From positions 434,001-498,000 of the forward strand of contig NZ_RYZR01000007.1 in assembly GCF_003977615.1 (NCBI RefSeq): DNA of 64,000 nucleotides, in the 5' to 3' direction. A program made the position numbers and the translations under genes. The notes under the pieces are model-generated. The model was given only the letters and a program-made list of their open reading frames with translations. It ran no database searches and was not told where the DNA came from. The DNA comes from Dyella dinghuensis. GTDB taxonomy: Bacteria > Pseudomonadota > Gammaproteobacteria > Xanthomonadales > Rhodanobacteraceae. Shown here one piece after another: positions 3,725 through 63,876 of the stretch. The stretch's first letter is position 1; every line of letters starts with the position of its first letter.

Positions 3725-5695
3725 TTACTGGTTGTAGTCAGCCAACACCGAGATGTTGTTGAAGCTGCCTTGTGGCGCAGTGACAAGGATGTAGTACGTG
3801 GTCGCTTGCGGTTGCGGAATAACCACCGCTTCGCTGGTGCCCGGTTTGATCGAGCTGAAATCGGCATTGCTGCCGTTTGCGGACGGAGCACTGCCAGCCT
3901 TTACATACAAACCTACGTTGCCCGAACCGCCCAGCGTGCGGATGTTCAACGTGGTGGCGCCTGCGGGAACAACAATCGAGTACAGGTTGCCGGTGCTCGT
4001 GGAGTTCTGACCTGACAACAACACGCCCTTGGTCAACGGGGTGGCATCGTCGCCTGGGCTCGGCGGCGGGTTGTCATTGTTCAAAGCCAGATTAACTGCA
4101 GCATTCGCATCGACGATGCCGGCCCCGATCGGGTGATCCTCGGTGACGGGAAATGCACGAGCCGACTTCACCAGCACATTGGTCATATCGGCTGGAGACA
4201 GTGCCGGCAGACCGGCTTCCTTCAATGCACCTACGACTAGCGCTACCGTGCCAGCAACGTGCGGGGATGCCTGCGAGGTGCCCGCCATGCCGCCATAAGC
4301 CTCAGTCGGATCGGCAGGATAAGTGGGCGTCGTTGTACCTTCATTGATGGCCTGCCAGACGAAGCCGTTGTCGACTTCGGTGCCCGACGACGCATCGTTC
4401 GCATAGATGCCGCCACCCGGCGCTGAAATCGTCACGCCCTTGCCGTAGTTGGAGTAGAACGCGCGCTTGCCCGTGATGCCGTTGGACGCCACGGCGACAA
4501 CGCCCGGACAGCTTGCCGGCGTGAAGTTGGAAACATCCGCCGTGCTGTTACCGGCAGCGACTACTACCGTGGTGCCGCGGCTGATCGCATCCTTGATCGC
4601 GGTGTATTCGGGCACGCTGGCGTCGCACGTTCCCTGGCCGCCTAGACTCATGTTGATGACCTGCGCGGGTTGCGCGAGATCCGGCACGCCGTCGATGTGA
4701 CCGCCGGATGCCCATTCGATCGCATCGGAAATGTCGGAATCGTAGCCGCCACAATGGCCCAGCACGCGTACTGGCAACACCTTGGCGTTGTACGCAACGC
4801 CGGCCATGCCCAAACCATTGTTCGTGAGTTCCGCGACTTCGCCTGACACCACCGTACCGTGCCAGCTGCTCGGTTCACCGTCGTTGGGATTGTTCGACCC
4901 GTAGCACTCCTGCAGATAGGGCTGCGTATTGTCCCAGTCGCCAAGATCCCAGCCGCCAGGGACGCGATCGTCCGTCGTGCGGCCAGAGACGAACGAATCG
5001 GTGATGAAGTCATATCCGATATTGTTGGTGGCGAGCGAGTAGTCCAGATCCGGGTGCTGCGTAATGCCGGTGTCAATGACGGCAACCGTCACGCCACTAC
5101 CGTCGGCGATGTCCCATGCGTTGTTGACGTCGGCGCCACCAGTCGCATTGAAGAAATTCCACTGGTATTGCTGGTAGTAGGGATCATTGGGCGTGAATGC
5201 CTGGGGTTGCGCCGCAGCCAGCATCGTCGCCTGCAACGAAGCCGGTGCAGCGAAGTCCTTCACCGCATACCGCTTGTAGTCGCGCTGCACGGAAGCAACC
5301 GCCGGATCGGCTGCAAGCTGCGCGACGAGTGCATCCGCTTCACTTTGACTGAGCTTGCGCGAGGTGCGCACCAGATCCGAACCCACCGCAAGTTTGCGCT
5401 TGTACGACACCGACAGCGATGCCGTGGTGGCGCCCGTGGACGACTTCGTTGCACGGTCCAGTCCCGCACGGCTGACGGCGGCTTTCACGTTTTGCAGCAC
5501 GGCGTCTTTGTTGCTGCGCTCGGTCGAGCCGTTTTTATAGGTGATGATGAAGCGATCGAAGCTCTGCTCACCCGCCTGGCCCACGCCAATAAATCGGGGA
5601 GAAGATTTAGATAGGTCCGCAGCGTGAAGGGCCGGAATGGCCAACACCATAGCGGCAGCGAGCGCGCCGATTCGAAAAGAGTGAAGTGACTTCAT
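3725..5695 (-). CDS. Secreted subtilisin-like S8 serine peptidase with C-terminal PPC domain
   Basis: Extracellular endoprotease of 656 residues. Order of parts: Sec signal peptide (about 1-25, ending ALHA); a propeptide with a FIITYKNGS inhibitor-like segment; the S8 catalytic domain with Asp208 (AVIDTGI), His279 (SWHGTVVSG), oxyanion Asn383 (AAGNS) and Ser474 (GTSQASPHVAG); and a C-terminal beta-sandwich of pre-peptidase (PPC) type from about residue 560. The start was moved inward to ATG 5695, where AAGGA lies about 8 bases upstream and the signal peptide begins. It is downstream of the autotransporter gene on the same strand with a 140-bp gap. Confidence 0.92.
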   Translation of the reverse strand: MKSLHSFRIGALAAAMVLAIPALHAADLSKSSPRFIGVGQAGEQSFDRFIITYKNGSTERSNKDAVLQNVKAAVSRAGLDRATKSSTGATTASLSVSYKRKLAVGSDLVRTSRKLSQSEADALVAQLAADPAVASVQRDYKRYAVKDFAAPASLQATMLAAAQPQAFTPNDPYYQQYQWNFFNATGGADVNNAWDIADGSGVTVAVIDTGITQHPDLDYSLATNNIGYDFITDSFVSGRTTDDRVPGGWDLGDWDNTQPYLQECYGSNNPNDGEPSSWHGTVVSGEVAELTNNGLGMAGVAYNAKVLPVRVLGHCGGYDSDISDAIEWASGGHIDGVPDLAQPAQVINMSLGGQGTCDASVPEYTAIKDAISRGTTVVVAAGNSTADVSNFTPASCPGVVAVASNGITGKRAFYSNYGKGVTISAPGGGIYANDASSGTEVDNGFVWQAINEGTTTPTYPADPTEAYGGMAGTSQASPHVAGTVALVVGALKEAGLPALSPADMTNVLVKSARAFPVTEDHPIGAGIVDANAAVNLALNNDNPPPSPGDDATPLTKGVLLSGQNSTSTGNLYSIVVPAGATTLNIRTLGGSGNVGLYVKAGSAPSANGSNADFSSIKPGTSEAVVIPQPQATTYYILVTAPQGSFNNISVLADYNQ

Positions 5696-49891: not shown

Positions 49892-50755
49892 ATGCTGCAT
49901 GACATGCGTTGGCGCAAAGCTCCGCGCGACAACCGCCTCCTGTGGGTGGCGTTGACGATCGCGCTGCTTCTGCACGCCATTTTCGTCACCGCGCTTTGGT
50001 ATGAGATGAAACCGCATGCGCAGGAAGTGGCGGCCGTGTATGTGCCGGAGCGCGCGATGGAAGTGCGATTTATTTCCCGGCCCTCGTCACGTGCGCCGGC
50101 GCCGCCGCCTATCGCGCCACCGCCACCCCCGCCGCGTCCTTCCCACGAACCGCCCTCGAAAAACGCCATCGCGCTGCGTTTGCCAGAGCCGCCGCCACCT
50201 CCGGCCACTTCCGTGGCGCCGCCGGCGCCCCCGGTCTTGTTCGACCGCACAGGCCGAATCATTTTGCCTGCCAACGCCACGAGCGCGCCGCCTGCGCCCA
50301 CAGCCGATTACGTGCAGCGCGGTCCGCAAGGCGATACGCAGATCATGCGCGACAAGGACACGGTCAAATACAAAGCCACCAAACTGGATCGGTACTGGCG
50401 CAAGAATTCCAACGCGGTGGACGATGCGTTGCAGAAACTCGTCGACAAGACGACGGTGACGAAGACGATCAACTTGCCGAAAGGTATTCGCATTCATTGC
50501 GGCGTTTCGATCGCTGCGCTGTCCGGCGGATGCAGCGGCGATCCGCCACCACCGCCACCCTCAAACGATGGCGACGAACGTATGAACATGGCACCCGCCG
50601 CGTTGGTCAAGAACCAACCGCAACCACCGCCGCCGAGCGTGGCGACATGCATCGCCGACTACAAAGCGGGCAAGCCATTACCCAACGGTTGTCCGGTGGA
50701 CACGCCGGCGCGTGCGGTCGATGCGCAGAAGGCGTCGTCCACGCCGGGGCAATGA
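49892..50755 (+). CDS. TonB/TolA-like proline-rich envelope protein, paralogue 1
   Basis: 287 residues. A short cytoplasmic stretch leads to one membrane helix (about 16-39) containing ALLLHAIF, comparable to the S-x-x-x-H helix of TonB but with Ala for Ser. A Pro/Ala-rich linker follows (about 60-140). A C-terminal domain (about 145-287) carries KYKATKLDRYW, TVTKTINLPKGIRIHCGV and two Cys pairs (IHCGV...GGCSG and ATCIAD...NGCPVD). That domain is not TonB_C as I know it but is shared with the next gene. The role is probably trans-envelope coupling; the partner is unknown. Confidence 0.75.
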   Translation: MLHDMRWRKAPRDNRLLWVALTIALLLHAIFVTALWYEMKPHAQEVAAVYVPERAMEVRFISRPSSRAPAPPPIAPPPPPPRPSHEPPSKNAIALRLPEPPPPPATSVAPPAPPVLFDRTGRIILPANATSAPPAPTADYVQRGPQGDTQIMRDKDTVKYKATKLDRYWRKNSNAVDDALQKLVDKTTVTKTINLPKGIRIHCGVSIAALSGGCSGDPPPPPPSNDGDERMNMAPAALVKNQPQPPPPSVATCIADYKAGKPLPNGCPVDTPARAVDAQKASSTPGQ

Positions 50756-50838: not shown

Positions 50839-52791
50839 ATGCCGCCACTGCCCCCCGATCAGCCTGCCCAACCCACTCGGGTCGTGATGATCAAGTCGCC
50901 GCGCGATGCGGCGACTTGGGCGATCGTCTATCGGCGCAAGATTCGCGATCGACCACGCGATCGGCTGCTGAAAGTGATCGCGATGTTCGGCGCTTTGCTG
51001 GTGCATGTGTTGTTTCTGCTGGGCATGGTGCTTGGTCCTGCGTATATCTTGCCGCCAGCGCCACCCGAGCCGAAGGGCAATGCGTTGCTGGTGAAGCTGA
51101 TCGAAAAGAAACCGCAGCCACCGCCGCCGCCGCCACCGATTCGCGGCATACCGCCGAAGGAACACGGGCCGACGCATCGCGGCAACACAAGTCAAGTTGC
51201 GCATGTGACGCACGAAGCGTCGACGGCTGCACCTGTCGCGGCGGTACAGCAGCCACCTGCGCCAACACCCAAGCAGCAACCGGTGGTGTCGCAGGCAAAG
51301 CAGACGATCGCGCAAAAGGCACGGCCACCCGCCGCGCCATTGCCGCCCATCACGCTGCCGAAAACGGCGCCGGTCACGCTTGAACAGCCAAAGTTGGTTG
51401 GCACGCCTCCACCCGCACCCACGGTACCGGCAACGCCTGTGCCGCAACCCGTGCCGCCACCCTTCCAGCCCGAGCCGCCGCGCAAACCGCAGGTGGAAGG
51501 CACGCAGCCGATGCCGCCGCTGCCATCGCTGGCGGTCCCGACACAACCAGCGCAATCGCCGCTGACCGCAGCGCCGCCCCAAATTGCGGTGGAGAAACCT
51601 TCCATCGCGCCCATTCCGATCCCCAACGTGGCGCCCGCCGCGCCTGCACCAACACCCGCTTCGCCGCCATCGCCGCCGCTTGAACCGATTCCGATGCCCG
51701 CACAACAAGCGCCGACGGTGAACTTGCAACCGTCCGAAGCGCCAGTGAAAGCGCCGATTGCGCCGCAATTGTCGCAACAACCGTTGGGGCCGATTGCGAA
51801 ACCGAGCGAACCGGAGCCGCAACTTGCGCCGATTCCACTGACGCCGATCACGACGCCCGCGCCGACCGTACCCCCGTCTGCGCCATCGCCTGTCGTGGCC
51901 GCGCCCAAGATCGCAGTACCTGCCGTGTCGGTTGCGCCGCTGCTGAGTCCGGCGCCTGCGCCATCGCCGTCGTCACCGCAAACCAAGACACCGCAATCGC
52001 CGTCCAATGAAAAGCCGACGGCGGAAGCACCGCCGTCGGCACCGAACAATCCGTCGCCGACATCGCCGGGCAATGAAGGCAACAACTCGGTGAGCACGGC
52101 GCCGAACGCTACGCCGCAGGGGAGTGACACGGGCAATCCCGGTTCGCCCAACGGCGGAACGAAACCGTCGGAAACCAACGGGCCGCCTAACGGGCAATCG
52201 ATACCGGTTCCGGGTAGCGGCAATGCGGGCGGTTCGCCGAACGGCGGCACACCGGGTACGCCCAACGGCACCTATATCCAGCTCAAGCCGAGCGGCGATA
52301 CGGAAATCATGTCGCACAACACGAATCTGCCGAAGTACAAGCCGACGGTGTTCGACAAGTACTGGACGCCAAAGGGTGAAAGCTCAGTCGATACGGCGTT
52401 GCGTCATGCGGTGGAAAAAACCACCGTCAGTCACACGTTCAATCTGCCGCAAGGCATACGCATCGAATGTTCGGTGATGCCGTTGTTGCCGTCGTCGCTG
52501 CTTGGCTGTCACAACCCCGATCCGCCGGCCGTACCGTTGCCCAAGAAGATTTACGACCGCCTGAATCTGCCGACCATCAACACATCGATACCCAAGACGC
52601 CTGCTCTTGCCGCAAGCGCACCGGCAGCCGCGTCGTCGGTGACGCTGAATAACGATGCGGAGTGCGCAGCCGCGCGCGTGAGTGGCGGCCCACTGCCGCC
52701 CAATTGCGGATCGACAGAAACGGTGAAGCCGCTGCATCTGCCGACATCGTCATCGAGTTCGTGGGTGCCTGCGAGCGATCAGTTCCATTGA
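50839..52791 (+). CDS. TonB/TolA-like proline-rich envelope protein, paralogue 2 (long linker)
   Basis: 650 residues. The N-terminus has one membrane helix (about 46-70, ALLVHVLFLLG). It is followed by a very long Pro/Ala/Thr-rich region and a Gly/Asn/Ser-rich part (about 72-475). The C-terminal domain matches the neighbour: KYKPTVFDKYW, TVSHTFNLPQGIRIECSV, and Cys pairs IECSV...LGCHN and AECAAA...PNCGS. The linker could span the periplasm. It begins 83 bp after paralogue 1. Tandem duplication with later linker expansion is the simplest reading. Confidence 0.78.
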   Translation: MPPLPPDQPAQPTRVVMIKSPRDAATWAIVYRRKIRDRPRDRLLKVIAMFGALLVHVLFLLGMVLGPAYILPPAPPEPKGNALLVKLIEKKPQPPPPPPPIRGIPPKEHGPTHRGNTSQVAHVTHEASTAAPVAAVQQPPAPTPKQQPVVSQAKQTIAQKARPPAAPLPPITLPKTAPVTLEQPKLVGTPPPAPTVPATPVPQPVPPPFQPEPPRKPQVEGTQPMPPLPSLAVPTQPAQSPLTAAPPQIAVEKPSIAPIPIPNVAPAAPAPTPASPPSPPLEPIPMPAQQAPTVNLQPSEAPVKAPIAPQLSQQPLGPIAKPSEPEPQLAPIPLTPITTPAPTVPPSAPSPVVAAPKIAVPAVSVAPLLSPAPAPSPSSPQTKTPQSPSNEKPTAEAPPSAPNNPSPTSPGNEGNNSVSTAPNATPQGSDTGNPGSPNGGTKPSETNGPPNGQSIPVPGSGNAGGSPNGGTPGTPNGTYIQLKPSGDTEIMSHNTNLPKYKPTVFDKYWTPKGESSVDTALRHAVEKTTVSHTFNLPQGIRIECSVMPLLPSSLLGCHNPDPPAVPLPKKIYDRLNLPTINTSIPKTPALAASAPAAASSVTLNNDAECAAARVSGGPLPPNCGSTETVKPLHLPTSSSSSWVPASDQFH

Positions 52792-53323: not shown

Positions 53324-53435
53324 AGCTCCTCCCCCTGCTCGCAGGGGGAGGCTGGGAGGGGGTGATTGCAATTTGCCTCGAGGCGGGGATGTTTGACCCC
53401 TCCCCAGCCCTCCCCTGCTCGCAGGGGAGGGAGCT
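53324..53435. repeat. GC-rich REPIN-like element, copy 1
   Basis: Two palindromes face each other: CCTCCCCCTGC-TC-GCAGGGGGAGG at 53328-53351, and CCTCCCCTGC-TC-GCAGGGGAGG near 53409-53430. About 60 bp separate them, and the outer ends are AGCTC and GAGCT. The element reaches the stop codon of the downstream minus-strand gene. A related copy in the opposite orientation is at 63768-63876. Confidence 0.85.
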
Positions 53436-55687
53436 CATAGCAGGCGCATCAGCTCTTTCATCAGCGGCAAACGACGCACACGCACAGCGCTCACGCGAAA
53501 CACCGCGTTCGCAAGCGCGGGAACAGCAGTAGGCATCGCGAGGAAACTCGCGCCAGCCGGGTCGCCATCGCCCGGTACCGTGATCACTTCCACGGTCTTG
53601 GGCAACTGCGCCATGCTGGCGAGCGGATAATCCTTCCAACTGCTTTGCTGCACCTTGCCGTCTTTCACAGTGATGGCGAGATTCATCGCAGTGGATAGCG
53701 CATCCAACGTCGCACCGGCAATTTGGCCTTCCAGGCCTGTCGGGTTGATCACGCGGCCTACATCCACAGCGCACACGACACGTTCGATCGTGAGCTTCTC
53801 GCCTTGCATGGACACTTCCACTGCGTGTGCGACGTAGGCGCCATCCATGTACCAGCATGCAAGGCCAAGACCGTTGACGCTGTGCAGCCAGTCTTTCCAG
53901 CTGATGCGATCGGCGACGAGCTTCAGAACGTTTGCCAGACGCGCCGTGTCGATCGCACCGCCGCCGGTGAGCGGCACCAGCCGCGGATCGCCGATCATGC
54001 GCAGGCGTGTATCCAGCGGGTCTTCCTTGATCGCATGCGCGATTTCGTCGATAAAGCAGTCCACCGCAAATGCGTTAGCGGTGTGCGGCATGCCGCGATG
54101 CGGGCCGCGCGGTAGCGCAGACGTGAGACTGAACCAGTCGCTGCGATAATTCGGCACGAAGCCGGCGGGCAACTGGTTGGCGTCGACTTCCGATGTCCAC
54201 AACTGCTCGCTATGCACGCCACGGCCGTTTTGCGCAGAGGCACTGGCGACGCGTTGATTCCATGCGGAGATGTGGCGCTTCGCATCGACAACGGCACTTA
54301 ATTTGTGCACGAAGCCAGAGCGGTAATAGTCGTGTGTGAGGTCTTCGTCGCGCGTCCAGAACAGACGCAGCGGTTTGCTGACGGCTTTTGCGAGCAGCAC
54401 GGCCTCGGCCACGTAGTCGTGATCGAGACGTCGGCCATAACCACCACCGACGCGCGATAGACGAATGTCGATCTGGTCCGGCGCCAAGCCCGTCAAACGC
54501 TGCACCACACTCCACGCCTGCTGTGGCGCTTGCGTAGGTACATAGAGCGTGGCGCTGGTCTTGTCCAGGCGCACCAGGCAATTCATCGGCTCGTTGACGG
54601 CATGAGCCAACCACGGTTGGTAATAGGTAGCATCGAGACGACGCGCGGCTTTTTTGCCGGCTTTGTCGACATCGCCGTCGTCGCGCACGCGCGTGGTCGG
54701 TGCGCTGTCGCTGTTCAACAGCGAGGTAGCTTCCTGTTCGAGCGCAGCGGTGTCTTCCTTGCCGCTGGCGCCGGGCTTCCACGTCAGCTTCAACGCGCTG
54801 CGGCCTTGTAGTGCTTGCCATGTCGTTTCTGCAATCACCGCAACGGCAGGCGCGATCACCGTCTGGCCCGGCGGTACCTTGGGTTCGGGCTTCAGTTCGA
54901 TAACGTCGATCACGCCCTTAATGGCGAGCGTTGCGCTTTTATCGAGCTGCTGCAGTTCGCCATCCGGCCAGGGGCAGTGCGAAAGCACTGCAACCACTGC
55001 GTCGCCGAAGTGCTGGTCCAATGAATAAGGCGTTTGACCGGTGACGATGCCGTGTGCGTCCACATCGCCGACGCCCTGGCCGATCAGCGTGAAGCGATCA
55101 GGCGATTTCAGCGGCGGCGGATTTTGCGGCGGCGTGATTTTCGATGCGGCCGAGGCCAGTTCGCCGTAGCGCAGGCGACGGCCGTCCGGTGCAATCACGA
55201 CACCTTTTTCGGTGCGCAATCGATTGGCTTGAATGCCCAGTTGCTGTGCGGCGGCCTGCATCAACAGCCAGCGCGCCAACGCACCTGCGGAGCGCAAATT
55301 GATCCACGCACGGGGAATGGAATTGCCAGTGCCGCCCACTTGCTGCCCATAAAGCCACTGCGGCGAGCCATTGTTGTTGCCCACGCCAAGACCCAGCTGC
55401 ACCACGCGTACGCGCTGCCACTCGACATCCAGTTCGTCGGCGATGATCCGCGGTAATGACGTGGCAACACCGGTGCCGGTATCCGGGTCGCGTGCACCGA
55501 TCACCACATCGCCATCGGGGTTGATACGCACGTACATGCCGAGCGGATAAAGCGCATCGCCCAGCATATCCATCGGCACGGGCGCATCGGCAGCATCGGC
55601 GATGCCCACACCGACGATCAACGCGCCGGTGGCGCTGGCGAGCACTTGCAGAAAACGGCGGCGTGAAAGTCGTACGTCGCCGCTCAC
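53435..55687 (-). CDS. Isoquinoline 1-oxidoreductase beta-subunit-like molybdenum hydroxylase, catalytic Glu missing
   Basis: 750 residues, molybdopterin-binding large subunit of the xanthine dehydrogenase superfamily. A Tat signal (SRRRFLQVLASATG) is at the N-terminus. The pterin motif RVGGGYGRR is at about 410-418. The C-terminal motif, normally GxGEPxxPP before a PALANAVF-type segment, reads GASFLAMPT here. The expected catalytic Glu is Phe715. The start is GTG 55687, overlapping the alpha-subunit stop by 4 bases with AAGGA upstream. Normal substrates would be N-heterocycles or aldehydes, but activity is doubtful. Confidence 0.85.
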   Translation of the reverse strand: MSGDVRLSRRRFLQVLASATGALIVGVGIADAADAPVPMDMLGDALYPLGMYVRINPDGDVVIGARDPDTGTGVATSLPRIIADELDVEWQRVRVVQLGLGVGNNNGSPQWLYGQQVGGTGNSIPRAWINLRSAGALARWLLMQAAAQQLGIQANRLRTEKGVVIAPDGRRLRYGELASAASKITPPQNPPPLKSPDRFTLIGQGVGDVDAHGIVTGQTPYSLDQHFGDAVVAVLSHCPWPDGELQQLDKSATLAIKGVIDVIELKPEPKVPPGQTVIAPAVAVIAETTWQALQGRSALKLTWKPGASGKEDTAALEQEATSLLNSDSAPTTRVRDDGDVDKAGKKAARRLDATYYQPWLAHAVNEPMNCLVRLDKTSATLYVPTQAPQQAWSVVQRLTGLAPDQIDIRLSRVGGGYGRRLDHDYVAEAVLLAKAVSKPLRLFWTRDEDLTHDYYRSGFVHKLSAVVDAKRHISAWNQRVASASAQNGRGVHSEQLWTSEVDANQLPAGFVPNYRSDWFSLTSALPRGPHRGMPHTANAFAVDCFIDEIAHAIKEDPLDTRLRMIGDPRLVPLTGGGAIDTARLANVLKLVADRISWKDWLHSVNGLGLACWYMDGAYVAHAVEVSMQGEKLTIERVVCAVDVGRVINPTGLEGQIAGATLDALSTAMNLAITVKDGKVQQSSWKDYPLASMAQLPKTVEVITVPGDGDPAGASFLAMPTAVPALANAVFRVSAVRVRRLPLMKELMRLL

Positions 55688-56217
55688 GCTTTGGATCCTT
55701 GCTTCATGGCTGCGGCGGCGCGCTTGATGGCGCTGCGCACGCGGGTCTGGCAACCGCAGCGGCAGAGATTGGGCAGGGTGTCGATATCGCTATCGGAAGG
55801 GTCCTTGCGGCGATTCAGCAGATCCATCGACGCGATCAGCCAGCCCGGCGTGCAATAGCCGCAGCCGATGGCGTCTTCATCGATAAAAGCCTGCTGCAAG
55901 GGGTGCAGGTTGCCCTTGCTATCGGCGAGACCTTCGACCGTGATGATGGGCTTGCCGACGAGTTTGCTCATCGGCACCCCGATGGCCGAGGTCGACTTGC
56001 CGTCCACCAGCACCAGATCCGCGCCGCCCACGCCGTTTTCACCGCTGTATTTGGTGCCGTCGAGCTGCAGCACGTCGCGCAAATACCAGAGCAGCGGCAT
56101 CTGCGGATCGCCGGTGTGGCGGTAGTGCTCGCCGTTGATTTGCACGTCGATGCCGGGACGAACCGCAATCGAGGTGATTTCGACCCCGCTGATGGCCCGG
56201 GCGTGGTCTTGCGCCAT
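55684..56217 (-). CDS. Isoquinoline 1-oxidoreductase alpha-subunit-like [2Fe-2S] protein lacking one cluster's cysteines
   Basis: 177 residues, small electron-transfer subunit. The C-terminal four-helix [2Fe-2S] site is intact (Cys119, Cys122 in GCGYCTPG; Cys152, Cys154 in LCRCGC). The plant-type N-terminal site should have four Cys with spacing 5, 3 and 12. These positions are Ser58, Val63, Ala66 and Ala78 (KYSGENGVGGADLVLVDG). The start is ATG 56217, 8 bases after AGGAGG. It is coupled to the large subunit by a GTGA overlap. Confidence 0.88.
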   Translation of the reverse strand: MAQDHARAISGVEITSIAVRPGIDVQINGEHYRHTGDPQMPLLWYLRDVLQLDGTKYSGENGVGGADLVLVDGKSTSAIGVPMSKLVGKPIITVEGLADSKGNLHPLQQAFIDEDAIGCGYCTPGWLIASMDLLNRRKDPSDSDIDTLPNLCRCGCQTRVRSAIKRAAAAMKQGSKA

Positions 56218-56268: not shown

Positions 56269-57588
56269 TTAGGGGCGCGTGGGGCTGAACAAGCGTCGCC
56301 AGATGTAATAAACCGGGACACCGGCCGCCATGATCAGGAGCCCCATGCCCGTATTGACGAGGCTGCTCTGCAGGCTTTCCACCACCACAAGGCCGATCGC
56401 GGCAATGAAGATAAGCGGCAGCAGCGGGTAGCCGGGCACGCGGAACGGCACCTCGCCATGCTGCTGGCGCCGGTACCAGAACAGTGTGCTGACGCCGATG
56501 GCGCAGGCAAGCCAGTCGCCGAAGGTGGCGTAGTCGAGCAATTGGCCATAGCTGCCCGACAGCACCAGCACGATGGACCATCCCGTCAGCAGCACCAGGG
56601 CGATGTTGGGCGTGTGGTAGCGCGGATTGAGGCGCGCCACCGTGCTGAAGAACAGGCCGTCGTCACCCATTACCTGCAAGACGCGAGCACCCGACACCAG
56701 CGTGATGTTGCAGAAGCCGAAGGTGGAAATGGCGATACCGACGGCGATGAGCTTTGCGCCCGCGGAGCCAAACACCTTGCCCATCACATCGGCCGCAGGC
56801 GCGTGGCTGTGCGCGAGCCCGTCATGGCCGAGCACGGCCAGATAGGCGACGTTGATCAGTGCATACGCGACGATCACGCCCAGCATGCCCACGAACAGCG
56901 CGCGCGGCAGCGTGCGTTGCGGCTGGCGCACTTCACCGGCGAGATTGTTGAGATAGGTGAAACCCGAGTAGGCGAATAGAACCGGCAACGACGCGCTCAT
57001 GAAACCGACGCCGCTGCGCGCCGGATCGGTCGCCAATATCGGCGTACTGCCCGCGCCCGCGAAAAAGAGTCCGCATACCACCAGCACGGCGACCGCCAGC
57101 AGCTTCAGCAGGGTGAAAAGGTTCTGCAACTGCGCACCGAACTTCAACCCGAACATGTTGAGGCCTGCCACCAGCACCAGTGCGCCCACCGCGAGCGGCG
57201 TCACCAAAGTCGCCGGCAGACCGAATACGGACGCAGCGTAACTGGCGAAGATGGTGGCGACCGCCGCGGTGGAACCGGAGTAGATCACCAGCAGCATCGT
57301 CCAGCCGAACAGGAAACCCGCCAGCGGACCAAAGGCTTCACGCAGATAAACGTACGTGCCACCCGCGTGCGGGCGCCGGGCGCCAAGCTCCGCATAACAC
57401 AGCGCGCCGATCAGGGTGAGGACACCGGCACCGATCCACATCATCAACAGCGCAAGCCCGGATTCGGTTCGCTGCGCCACGATGTACGGATTGAGAAAGA
57501 CGCCGCCGCCGATAATGCCGCCGATCACGACCAACGCCGCATCGCGCAGACGAAGGCTGCGTTGGTAGCCGGTAACCGGTGACGTCAT
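56269..57588 (-). CDS. APC-family amino-acid permease
   Basis: 439 residues, about twelve membrane helices. The first-helix motif ALVVIGGIIGGGVFLNP is the APC signature (GGIIG), followed by GARRPHAGGTYVYLREAFGP. It resembles serine/threonine exchanger-type members of the L-type/APC superfamily, but the substrate is unknown. The start is ATG 57588 with AGGGGTG upstream; the extension to 57684 has no such signal. The gene lies 51 bp upstream of the Ior-like pair on the same strand, so a common transcript is possible. Confidence 0.88.
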   Translation of the reverse strand: MTSPVTGYQRSLRLRDAALVVIGGIIGGGVFLNPYIVAQRTESGLALLMMWIGAGVLTLIGALCYAELGARRPHAGGTYVYLREAFGPLAGFLFGWTMLLVIYSGSTAAVATIFASYAASVFGLPATLVTPLAVGALVLVAGLNMFGLKFGAQLQNLFTLLKLLAVAVLVVCGLFFAGAGSTPILATDPARSGVGFMSASLPVLFAYSGFTYLNNLAGEVRQPQRTLPRALFVGMLGVIVAYALINVAYLAVLGHDGLAHSHAPAADVMGKVFGSAGAKLIAVGIAISTFGFCNITLVSGARVLQVMGDDGLFFSTVARLNPRYHTPNIALVLLTGWSIVLVLSGSYGQLLDYATFGDWLACAIGVSTLFWYRRQQHGEVPFRVPGYPLLPLIFIAAIGLVVVESLQSSLVNTGMGLLIMAAGVPVYYIWRRLFSPTRP

Positions 57589-58902: not shown

Positions 58903-60819
58903 TCAGAAGCCGGCGTGCAAGAACGCGTCCAGATTGGTGACGTCCAGCGTGCCGATGCCCGCACCCGGGTTGTAATGCGGTGCACCCGCGTAGAACCAGT
59001 TGTCGCCGGCACGAACGCTGTTGAACGGCGAGAAGCGGCCATAGCCGAAGAAGTTCTGAATGGCGTAGATCTGCGGGTTCCACAAACCGATGCGATGGCC
59101 CGTGCTTTGCCGTAGCAGCGCGGTGATGCCGTTGAGCTGCGGCGCGACGAAGCTGGTGCCACCTTCGCCGCTGTTCAAGCCGCCGTCAAACGTCGACACG
59201 AAGATGTAGCCCGTTTCCGGATCTGCGTTCAACGAAATGTCGGGCACGTTGCGACCTTGGAAGTGAGCGGGCAGTTTCAGCAACGTGGTCGGACCGGCGC
59301 TGGGATCGTTGTAGACCAGCGATTGCTTCGCTTCGCTGGCGCGGACACCGAACGTGAATTGCTGATAGAAGGGTGTGCGCCAGTAAACGCTCACGCCGCC
59401 GCCGCCGCCGCTGGAGAACAGATCAATCACGTTCGGTCCGATGTACGTGTTGAAGTAGTTCTGGATGTAATCCCAGCCCCAAACGCTCTCCTGCGTGATC
59501 GATTCAACCGGGCCGGTGCCAAACGCGTAGCTGTAAGGCGTAGTGGTGCCACCTGCTGCGGTGATGAACGGGTCGGATGCCGGCGAATCCACGGTGAGTG
59601 GCGCGGTGAAGTCGCCCACGCCTGTGCCAGCGCCGAGTGAGCGAACGGTGTCGTACGCACCCGAATCGCCGGCGGCGGCGAACAAGGATTGTCCTTGCAC
59701 CGCCGCTTCCAGGAAGATTTCGTGGAACGCACGCAGATCACCCGCGTCGCTGGTATCGGTGTCGCTATCGCCATTGACGATGGCGCCGAAGTTGAAGATT
59801 TCCGGGCCGCCCCAGCTGGTCGAAATGCTGTCTGCCACGTTGTCCGACACGGCTTGCGCAAACGCGTCGATGTAGCCGTTACCTGCATTCGGTGCGTCGT
59901 ACACGATGATGTTGGCGAACGGTGCAACACCACCCGACTGCTCGACGTCGATCGACGTTTCGCCACTGCCGCCGTCAATCGCACCGCCACCATCCACGTG
60001 CACCTGTGTGATGCGGTTGGGTTTGGTCGTCAGGCCGATATCCGACCAGTAAGTCGTCGCATCGGCAGGATAGAAATTCGACAAAGTCACGATAGCGACG
60101 GTCGATCCCTTGCCGACAACGCCACGCTGATACAGAGGATTGATGTTGTAGAAGTTGGCGACGTCACCGACGGTGTATTCCCCTGGCTCGCCCGACGCCG
60201 TCGGGTTGCTGCCGGAGGATTTCGTCAATGCAGTGGCCTTGCCGTTCTGGCTTTGCAGCGACACGAACGCAGGCGTGGAGACGCGATGCGAGAGATACGT
60301 GCGCTCGTTGCTCAGGCCGCTCGCGATAGCCACGACATCGGCGATCGACGATGGGATCTGCGGTGTCGATGACGGCTTGTGGAAGTGGCGCCCCGTCTGG
60401 CTTGAGACGTAGTTGTGAACGGATGTACTGAAGAGCGCGTTGAACTGGCTCAGCGTGCCGCTCGTTTGGATGGCCAGATGGCTCGGCAATACCTGGGCGG
60501 TGATGCCTTGCTGTTTGAGAACCGACTGCACCCGCGCGATATCGGCGTCGGTTGCGCCATATTGCGCAGCAAACTGCGCGGTGGTCAGAAACTTCTGGTA
60601 GTTCGCACTACCGGGCGTGACGGTTTGCTTGATGTAATCTTCCAACGCCGCCTGGTTGTGTAGTTTCAACACCAGCGTGACTTGCAGATTCTGGTTTGTC
60701 GAAGCAGTACCCGTATCAACGGCAGGGGTGGCGCTGGCCGCCATGGCACCGGCACTCAGACCGGTCAACAACAAACCCAGAGACAGCGAAAGCGACGTGC
60801 GATGCAACTGCGCAATCAT
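58903..60819 (-). CDS. Secreted sedolisin-family (S53) serine-carboxyl peptidase
   Basis: 638 residues. Sec signal peptide (about 1-27, ending GAMA), then a pro-kumamolisin activation domain (about 40-190). The S53 catalytic domain has Glu287 and Asp291 (GETSIDVEQ) and Ser556 (GGTSFVAPQ). The C-terminal calcium site is in GDNWFYAGAPHYNPGAGIGTLDV. Such enzymes are acid-active endopeptidases released outside the cell. The start is ATG 60819 with AGGAG 7 bases upstream; a GTG at 60855 is less likely. Confidence 0.92.
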   Translation of the reverse strand: MIAQLHRTSLSLSLGLLLTGLSAGAMAASATPAVDTGTASTNQNLQVTLVLKLHNQAALEDYIKQTVTPGSANYQKFLTTAQFAAQYGATDADIARVQSVLKQQGITAQVLPSHLAIQTSGTLSQFNALFSTSVHNYVSSQTGRHFHKPSSTPQIPSSIADVVAIASGLSNERTYLSHRVSTPAFVSLQSQNGKATALTKSSGSNPTASGEPGEYTVGDVANFYNINPLYQRGVVGKGSTVAIVTLSNFYPADATTYWSDIGLTTKPNRITQVHVDGGGAIDGGSGETSIDVEQSGGVAPFANIIVYDAPNAGNGYIDAFAQAVSDNVADSISTSWGGPEIFNFGAIVNGDSDTDTSDAGDLRAFHEIFLEAAVQGQSLFAAAGDSGAYDTVRSLGAGTGVGDFTAPLTVDSPASDPFITAAGGTTTPYSYAFGTGPVESITQESVWGWDYIQNYFNTYIGPNVIDLFSSGGGGGVSVYWRTPFYQQFTFGVRASEAKQSLVYNDPSAGPTTLLKLPAHFQGRNVPDISLNADPETGYIFVSTFDGGLNSGEGGTSFVAPQLNGITALLRQSTGHRIGLWNPQIYAIQNFFGYGRFSPFNSVRAGDNWFYAGAPHYNPGAGIGTLDVTNLDAFLHAGF

Positions 60820-61447
60820 TGTGTTTCTCCTGATAGGCACAACGGTTTGCGACACCGGTCATGCATGGGCAAAGACGTAGAAGCACCCATGCCCAGCCGG
60901 CGTAGCCGTTGGGCGATTAGCTGAAATCTCTACTTCCCCGCGACGCTCCCTGTCTCCCCTGAAGACGGTGTGACGTAGCCCCCTCAGCCTATCGCGCCTT
61001 CCGGTGACGGGAAAGTGCCCGGAAGGCATGTCGGTCTGACTGAATTGCATGTAGGTGTAAATCGCTGATCTGTAGTCGATTCATGTGCGGCAGGCCTTGC
61101 ATGACGGGGTGACACGCATTGAAGGGATGGCGAAACAACGGGCGCATGAAAACACCCGCACTTCATGTCGCGATGCGGCAACGCGTTCCTCGACGGAATA
61201 GCGGTTTCAATCGATGTAAGTGATTTCTCAGGCACATCGTTGCTCGTACGGCGCCTCCATGTGCAAAGAACGGATTTGATGCATTGCATATCGCGAATCT
61301 TGTGCGCTTTCGCCTACGTGGCGCACGGAAAATTCCATATGCATCAATCACTTCTAAAAGTAACCTTCGCGCAAATTTTCAGCCAGCGTCACGGCGGTTC
61401 GCTCTGCGCTCGATGGAAACGACATACCAACCCTCAAGGAGTTTCTT
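60820..61447. other. Divergent 628-bp spacer between sedolisin and outer-membrane protein genes
   Basis: No supported gene. It holds the structured sedolisin leader (60863-60914), a small GTGCGC...GCGCAC inverted repeat (61302-61307 with 61321-61326) and the AGGAG site for the outer-membrane protein gene near 61437. Both divergent promoters must lie here, but no confident -35/-10 pair was found. Confidence 0.5.
60863..60914 (-). promoter_or_regulatory. Tandem hairpins in the sedolisin 5' leader
   Basis: GCATGGG (60863-60869) pairs with CCCATGC (60886-60892). GCCCA (60891-60895) pairs with TGGGC (60910-60914). The two stems share bases 60891-60892, so they compete slightly. They lie 45-95 bases upstream of the start codon on the minus strand. 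Confidence 0.4.
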
Positions 61448-63767: not shown

Positions 63768-63876
63768 CTCCCTCCCCTGCAAGCAGGGGAGGGCTGGGGT
63801 GGGGTCATTCAATCTCGCCGTGAGGCAAGCTCGTGCCACCCCCTCCCAACCTCCCCCTGCAAGCAGGGGGAGGAGC
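63768..63876. repeat. GC-rich REPIN-like element, copy 2
   Basis: CCTCCCCTGC-AA-GCAGGGGAGG (about 63772-63793) faces CCTCCCCCTGC-AA-GCAGGGGGAGG (about 63850-63873). The arms and the GCTGGGG/CCCCCTCCCAACC flanks match copy 1 at 53324-53435, read in the opposite orientation. It lies 16 bp after the fumarase stop. Confidence 0.85.

Follow-up and report, generated by a model that had tools for sequence, protein, structure and literature searches.

A xanthine-oxidase-family subunit pair of Dyella and its relatives that has probably given up its molybdenum cofactor

Introduction

The membrane-bound aldehyde dehydrogenase of Gluconobacter oxydans (PDB 8gy3, chains B and C) is the described system closest to the subject of this study, a two-gene locus on the minus strand of a 64,000-nucleotide stretch of Dyella dinghuensis (contig NZ_RYZR01000007.1, positions 434,001 to 498,000; hereafter the window). 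The two systems have matching small and large subunits; the Gluconobacter enzyme keeps the motif of the catalytic glutamate and the cysteines of the distal, plant-type [2Fe-2S] cluster (cluster II), whereas both are gone from the window pair. The window's own genome supplies a second comparison, an isoquinoline 1-oxidoreductase-type (IorAB-like) paralogue (L005, G000:C6:223500-230000) that shares the domain order and, by eye, a signal of the twin-arginine translocation (Tat) kind, but has all eight cluster cysteines and a GLGE motif, and lies beside cytochrome c-like and XdhC-like neighbours (by eye). NuoG of complex I offers a precedent rather than a relative: like the protein proposed here it retains a molybdopterin-family domain without the molybdenum cofactor (Moco), but it resembles the dimethyl sulphoxide (DMSO) reductases and belongs to complex I.

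A 2018 survey of molybdenum use (PMC6147048), which lists NuoG as molybdenum-independent, reports several hundred organisms with a partial molybdenum trait, mostly carrying orphan molybdoproteins; its Table 2 gives 13 + 292 bacteria with molybdoenzymes and without Moco synthesis. These orphans, like the pairs described below, include xanthine-oxidase-family proteins from genomes without a full Moco pathway. According to its main text, the survey looked for residues marking the orphans, found none and called for tests of molybdenum use; the orphans of the window's clade, in contrast, have the loss of the glutamate in common. The words Dyella and Rhodanobacter are absent from that main text, and among the matches listed in our literature search, outside which subscription journals fall, no other paper dealt with a Moco-free xanthine-oxidase-family clade.

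Judging from sequence comparisons, the window pair is probably a Moco-free, Tat-exported descendant of an enzyme of the isoquinoline 1-oxidoreductase/aldehyde dehydrogenase type, kept for a role other than hydroxylation. Its close relatives are well preserved even in bacteria apparently incapable of Moco synthesis, so the pair probably has a different function, carried out without the cofactor.

Results

Lost and retained sites of the window pair

The following features define the pair; large-subunit residue numbers follow P0002.

55684..56217, minus strand: small subunit (P0001, 177 amino acids), open reading frame and translation, homologue of xanthine-oxidase-family [2Fe-2S] subunits
53435..55753, minus strand: large subunit (P0002/P0005) with MoCoBD_1 and MoCoBD_2, start uncertain (TTG at 55753 or GTG at 55687)
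55981..56043, minus strand: former plant-type [2Fe-2S] loop, small-subunit residues 59-79, with ligand positions Gly59, Gly64, Asp67 and Ile79 by alignment with cysteine-bearing relatives
55756..55863, minus strand: retained [2Fe-2S] site (cluster I), Cys119, Cys122, Cys152 and Cys154
53528..53554, minus strand: GASFLAMPT replacing the GxGE motif, with Phe721 at the position of the catalytic glutamate (translation and alignment)
55649..55666, minus strand: twin-arginine motif SRRRFL of a Tat-type signal (P0002 residues 14-19), with R15, R16 and F18 invariant

The small subunit matches Fer2_2 (76.6 bits, residues 93-165) and no other Pfam family at E <= 0.001, and its top PDB sequence matches are 5y6q_A and 8gy3_B. 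Its AlphaFold2 model is good (predicted local distance difference test, pLDDT, 86.8) and matches its own family, with 8gy3_B in third rank (template-modelling scores 0.80/0.91) behind 1rm6_C and 5y6q_A. The large subunit carries the Moco-binding domains that characterize the xanthine oxidase family (MoCoBD_1, 98.9 bits; MoCoBD_2, 76.5 bits), and its top PDB match is 8gy3_C (E 6.1e-55, residues 6-749).

We compared the pair with 80 named loci, the best 80 of 211 confirmed in one scan (from Dyella, Rhodanobacter, Frateuria, Fulvimonas and metagenome bins), and with 147 genomes of the window's family; the two sets overlap and are not independent. Cysteine occupies the cluster II ligand positions in 0 of the 80 named loci, while the four ligands of the proximal (C-terminal) cluster I, which characterize the xanthine oxidase family and are present in the window pair, are kept in all 80. 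The glutamate is missing in all 77 named loci with a readable motif, the other three of the 80 motifs being unreadable, and GLGEPGV of 8gy3 aligns gap-free with GASFLAM of the window. Of the 82 clade rows, 75 have a fifth cysteine beside cluster I, Cys156 (CRCGC), which none of the Glu-bearing reference rows has.

A first-pass annotation of this DNA had reported much of this pattern. Its intact second cluster (Cys119, 122, 152 and 154) is borne out, as is its placing of Phe at the glutamate in GASFLAMPT (its Phe715, counted from GTG, is our Phe721), and our alignment puts no Cys or Glu at the lost sites in named loci with readable motifs. It was right that the four plant-type cysteines are lost, but its ligand positions (Ser58, Val63, Ala66 and Ala78) are one residue low. 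It had also called the frames open, coupled and Tat-exported: they are indeed open, overlapping or abutting on the minus strand, and the twin-arginine motif is there, with Arg15, Arg16 and Phe18 unchanged throughout two sets of aligned large subunits (16 of 16 and 27 of 27); Tat export is predicted from that motif. Iron-sulphur clusters of Tat proteins are inserted in the cytoplasm, so Tat export would still make sense for a pair that keeps one.

Losses at putative Moco-contact positions

Besides the glutamate, several putative Moco-contact positions have changed. Mapping by motif, we take small-subunit Gln118 to correspond to xanthine oxidase Gln112, large-subunit Gln78 to Gln1040 and Ser127 to the Ser1080 region. 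A docking paper (PMC11817512) has, in the relevant passage, Gln112, Gln767, Gln1040 and Glu1261 surrounding the xanthine oxidase centre. As reference we used 42 rows, selected because they have all eight cysteines and an intact Glu motif, against which two further features of the window pair stand out.

55864..55866, minus strand: Gly118 of the small subunit, replacing the Gln before CGYC (the 42 reference rows and the 12 paralogues all have Gln, the 82 clade rows all Gly)
55469..55483, minus strand: DTGTG of the large subunit replacing E[MIL]GQG, with Thr78 for Gln (the 42 reference rows all have Gln, and 80 of the 82 clade rows have Thr)

Ser127 of the large subunit, invariant in the 42 reference rows, is likewise Gly in all 82 clade rows, while GGG[FY]GRR and Gln392 are kept in the window pair. 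Across 103 rows we scored five positions (small Gln118; large Gln78, Ser127, Gln392 and Phe621, the last of unsure role): at least one is changed in all 47 Glu-less rows versus two of the 56 Glu-bearing ones. Taken singly, Gln118 is altered in 41 of the 47 rows without Glu and in none of the 56 with it; the corresponding figures are 32 of 47 and 0 of 56 for Gln78, and 41 of 47 and 1 of 56 for Ser127.

Order of the losses

The tree was built from 105 rows covering both subunits after the trait columns had been taken out, and without L136 and L144, in which the large subunit is short or cut; it used 24 of the 80 named loci, and the 103 rows scored above are these without the long branches L243 and L244. 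Fully canonical members from other families (eight cysteines, G[VM]GE) branch outside the members of the window's family, which begin as GAGE. Glutamate is missing throughout a 32-row clade (support 99), in which six rows with GASV or GASI retain all eight cysteines, whereas cluster II is missing only in the 26-row clade that contains the window pair (support 100). Other Glu-less branches have GAED, GAFA/GAFD, GLDD/SVDD and others. Parsimony counts at least six changes of Glu state, and the replacements vary in the deep branches.

L178 (G019:C1:3131000-3137000; small subunit 4067-4597, minus strand) is a mirror image of the window pair, having lost the cluster I cysteines Cys119, 122 and 154 (TGYAQPA, CRD) together with the glutamate; four cysteines are still present in its cluster II region.

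Several Glu-less lineages keep eight cysteines, and L178 gave up cluster I in place of cluster II. We therefore read the losses as sequential and repeated rather than as one coordinated change, and the tree indicates that glutamate went first and cluster II later. The first-pass annotation had proposed a coordinated loss of Cys and Glu; the tree order does not support this idea, and we rejected it. The two losses do co-occur in the window's 26-row clade, as that proposal would have it, but Glu loss is also found in eight-cysteine rows.

Persistence in genomes without Moco markers

Small-subunit matches at E below 1e-32 were found in 141 of the 147 family genomes, with no stop inside any best match, and orthologues are present in all 16 Dyella genomes, the other 15 at 77-85% identity to that of the window. 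Farther out the signal thins: at 1e-120 the large-subunit profile matches 88 of 200 genomes of the order, many of these being other subfamilies by score, and in a class sample only three of 369 genomes pass 1e-220 (the best two candidates per genome being scored), two of the three from the family itself.

We searched the 147 family genomes for three markers of Moco synthesis: MoaC (present in 109), the MoaA C-terminal domain MoaA_C (108) and the MoeA N-terminal domain MoeA_N (109). All three were found in 105 genomes, none in 35, and a partial set in seven. The pair is kept in 34 of the 35 marker-less genomes, the exception being G082. Glutamate is lost in all 33 readable copies there (the G097 copy is cut at a contig end), and of the 34 pairs, 24 have lost cluster II and ten retain it, while all 34 have an intact cluster I; the Glu-less GAED lineages among them retain both clusters. 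The 105 genomes with all markers divide differently: glutamate is kept in 26 of 89 readable copies and lost in 63, with 11 motifs unreadable and five genomes lacking the pair or a fetched locus. The contrast (Glu kept in 0 of 33 versus 26 of 89) has a Fisher's exact p of 1e-4, with no correction for kinship. The seven partial-marker genomes comprise three with a Glu-bearing pair, two Glu-less and two unread.

Six of the marker-less genomes are single-contig assemblies at least 99% complete (G012, G037, G045, G052, G059 and G080). Since the marker-less genomes are spread over 12 genera, several of which also hold Moco-positive members, repeated loss of the Moco pathway, with retention of the pair, is probable. 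No MoCoBD_2 locus other than the pair was found in 33 of the 34 marker-less genomes with a match; the exception is G075. The DMSO-reductase-type family PF00384 gives one match in 34 of the 35 marker-less genomes and none in G135, compared with 3-5 in five Moco-positive genomes; the three matches that were checked (G012, G045 and the window genome) are all NuoG.

Purifying selection

Both subunits evolve under constraint. Nei-Gojobori ratios of nonsynonymous to synonymous substitution rates (dN/dS), taken as sums across 18 independent pairs from the named set, are 0.239 for the small subunit, 0.219 for the large and 0.214 for the neighbouring permease. In genus g6, all six sampled genomes of which are Moco-negative (five of them comparable), the medians are 0.15 for the large and 0.18 for the small subunit; genera g25, g18 and g3 (one pair) lie at 0.07-0.30. 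The new residues at the former Glu and Gln positions are fixed across the clade: Phe721 in 78 of 79 rows with, as counted above, Thr78 and Gly118.

Neighbouring genes

56269..57588, minus strand: LAT-type amino-acid permease (P0003; AA_permease_2), 51 bases upstream of the pair, TIGR00911 at 253 bits, below cut-off

The permease is a frequent but dispensable companion of the pair. Of the 80 named loci, 71 have it upstream in the same orientation as the pair (3.7 kb off in one), as do 24 other family loci, Glu-bearing and Glu-less alike; it lies on the opposite strand in none. For the nine named loci that lack it, the assemblies (some of them metagenome bins) contain only a 55-58% paralogue; in the Moco-negative genomes G059 and G022 the permease gene has a stop, and in G052 it is partial, with the pair intact in all three.

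No redox partner was recognized among the 40 largest clusters of neighbouring genes, a clustering that disregarded open reading frame picks resembling antisense artefacts in GC-rich DNA. XdhC-like and MobA-like neighbours (by eye) accompany eight and six, respectively, of 21 outside-family or distant loci and, within the flanks examined, none of the clustered family loci.

Other features lie nearby. Promoter-like sites at the locus are no more frequent than expected by chance, and no terminator-like site was found there. A palindromic repeat, CTCCCCTGCTCGCAGGGGAG, is located at 53410-53429 of the window, downstream of the large subunit, with a near copy at 63772-63791 at the window end (0 occurrences in 100 shuffles). 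Near the operon, at 58906-60855 on the minus strand, is a gene for a protein with a Pro-kumamolisin activation domain, presumably a peptidase of the S53 type. Two tandem proline-rich open reading frames at 49892-50755 and 50839-52791 on the plus strand seem, on visual inspection, to have a C-terminal stretch in common; neither matches a Pfam or NCBIfam family.

Discussion

The catalytic glutamate, the distal [2Fe-2S] ligands and several of the presumed Moco contacts are gone from the pair, and the tree places the loss of glutamate first. The rest of both proteins, with the proximal ligands, stays under purifying selection, and same-type copies persist in many genomes where the three Moco-synthesis genes were not found. 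We propose that such a protein would hold no Moco and would not hydroxylate. Three defining features are lost (plant-type ligands, catalytic glutamate and putative Moco contacts), so we file the pair as probably a cofactor-free variant of a xanthine-oxidase-family hydroxylase, working more like NuoG. The first-pass annotation had judged the pair repurposed or non-hydroxylating and not a product of random decay, and this is well supported by the clade-wide state, purifying selection and retention in genomes without the three Moco markers; where it invoked altered electron transfer, absence of the molybdenum centre itself is the simpler reading.

Several observations weigh against a Moco-free pair, and they are best considered together. 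First, the window's own genome has all three Moco markers and the intact paralogue L005, so the Moco-freedom of the window pair is inferred from its clade. Second, the markers and the glutamate do not coincide everywhere: G106, G122 and G138 combine a Glu-bearing pair with partial markers, in fragmented assemblies (G122 has MoeA alone). Marker-less G075 holds a second, canonical Ior-type pair (L308, G075:C12:22500-27000; eight cysteines, GIGEPP) beside a MocA-like gene; an assembly gap may therefore explain why no markers were found in it, which would make it a false negative. Leaving G075 out, glutamate is lost in 32 of 32 readable marker-less copies, among 33 marker-less genomes with the pair.

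Third, the association between the contact positions and the glutamate is incomplete. The mapping of those positions onto xanthine oxidase is our presumption; Gln392 is mostly kept (changed in five of 47 Glu-less and one of 56 Glu-bearing rows), Gln661 has no association with Glu loss (six of 47 versus six of 56 rows), and L162 and L166 keep the glutamate though contact positions are altered. An independent-pairs test, underpowered with five pairs only, gave on average 4.5 in agreement and 0 opposed (p 0.06-0.125). Fourth, single-pair dN/dS values reach 0.63, and the AlphaFold2 model of the large subunit, made with clade-only rows, is too poor to use (pLDDT 63).

Fifth, formerly invariant positions that have changed are fixed (at least 95%) no more often than other columns, neither in the large subunit (12 of 30 versus 312 of 754) nor in the small one (six of 11 versus 82 of 173). 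A rebuilt, newly fixed pocket had first been argued from hand-picked positions; the full recount found no excess fixation, and we dropped it as evidence and became less confident both of the binding role and of the wider proposal given last. With fixation at the changed positions no higher than elsewhere, conservation alone does not show a rebuilt pocket.

As to what a Moco-free pair would do, our preferred guess, possible rather than probable, is that the emptied pocket binds another ligand and that the complex works in the periplasm as a binding protein or scaffold, its one [2Fe-2S] cluster having a structural or a redox part.

Next, and more doubtful, comes an iron-sulphur protein of the periplasm that carries electrons or senses redox state by means of the remaining cluster I. 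The constancy of the cluster I ligands in named and marker-less loci alike suits such a role, as do the retention of Cys156 and of both clusters in the Glu-less, Moco-negative GAED lineages; but loss of the distal cluster takes away the usual exit for electrons, L178 is retained despite its loss of cluster I, and the 40 largest neighbour clusters include no recognized redox partner.

We think it quite unlikely that the pair is still a Moco enzyme, working without the glutamate on an unusual substrate or by an unusual mechanism with a short electron chain. The recognizable MoCoBD domains, the kept GGGYGRR and Gln392 and the Moco markers of the window genome would fit such an enzyme; against it, same-type copies occur in 34 genomes without the three markers, in 24 of which cluster II is missing just as it is in the window pair, and several positions have been lost together. 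Just as improbable is a role of the pair as partner subunit to the neighbouring LAT-type permease. Eukaryotic LATs have an accessory subunit of this kind in 4F2hc, and the frequent upstream, same-strand position of the permease would fit such a partnership, but the case is weakened by the genomes in which the permease is absent or interrupted beside an intact pair.

Finally, that these are decaying remnants of a dispensable enzyme, as the repeated changes of Glu state, the varied deep-branch replacements and the few high dN/dS values could suggest, is very improbable in view of the summed dN/dS of 0.22-0.24 and group medians of 0.07-0.30, the small-subunit matches in 141 of 147 family genomes, with no stop inside any best match, and the identical replacements fixed clade-wide at the Glu and Gln positions.

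Returning to the Moco-free descendant that we favour, we tentatively extend the proposal to the whole xanthine-oxidase-family clade: it may consist of molybdenum-free periplasmic proteins whose pocket serves another ligand or cofactor, a counterpart of NuoG, with loss of the glutamate and of the Moco-contact glutamines marking molybdenum-free orphans. By their domain matches such pairs look like molybdenum hydroxylases, and a survey of molybdenum use would count them as molybdoenzymes. For one group, the clade would supply the orphan marker that the survey (PMC6147048), by its main text, lacked. The natural series from intact enzyme to Glu-less form in marker-less genomes makes orphan molybdenum use testable for one xanthine-oxidase-family group, and it offers a case in which the xanthine oxidase fold may have been kept for a purpose other than molybdenum chemistry.

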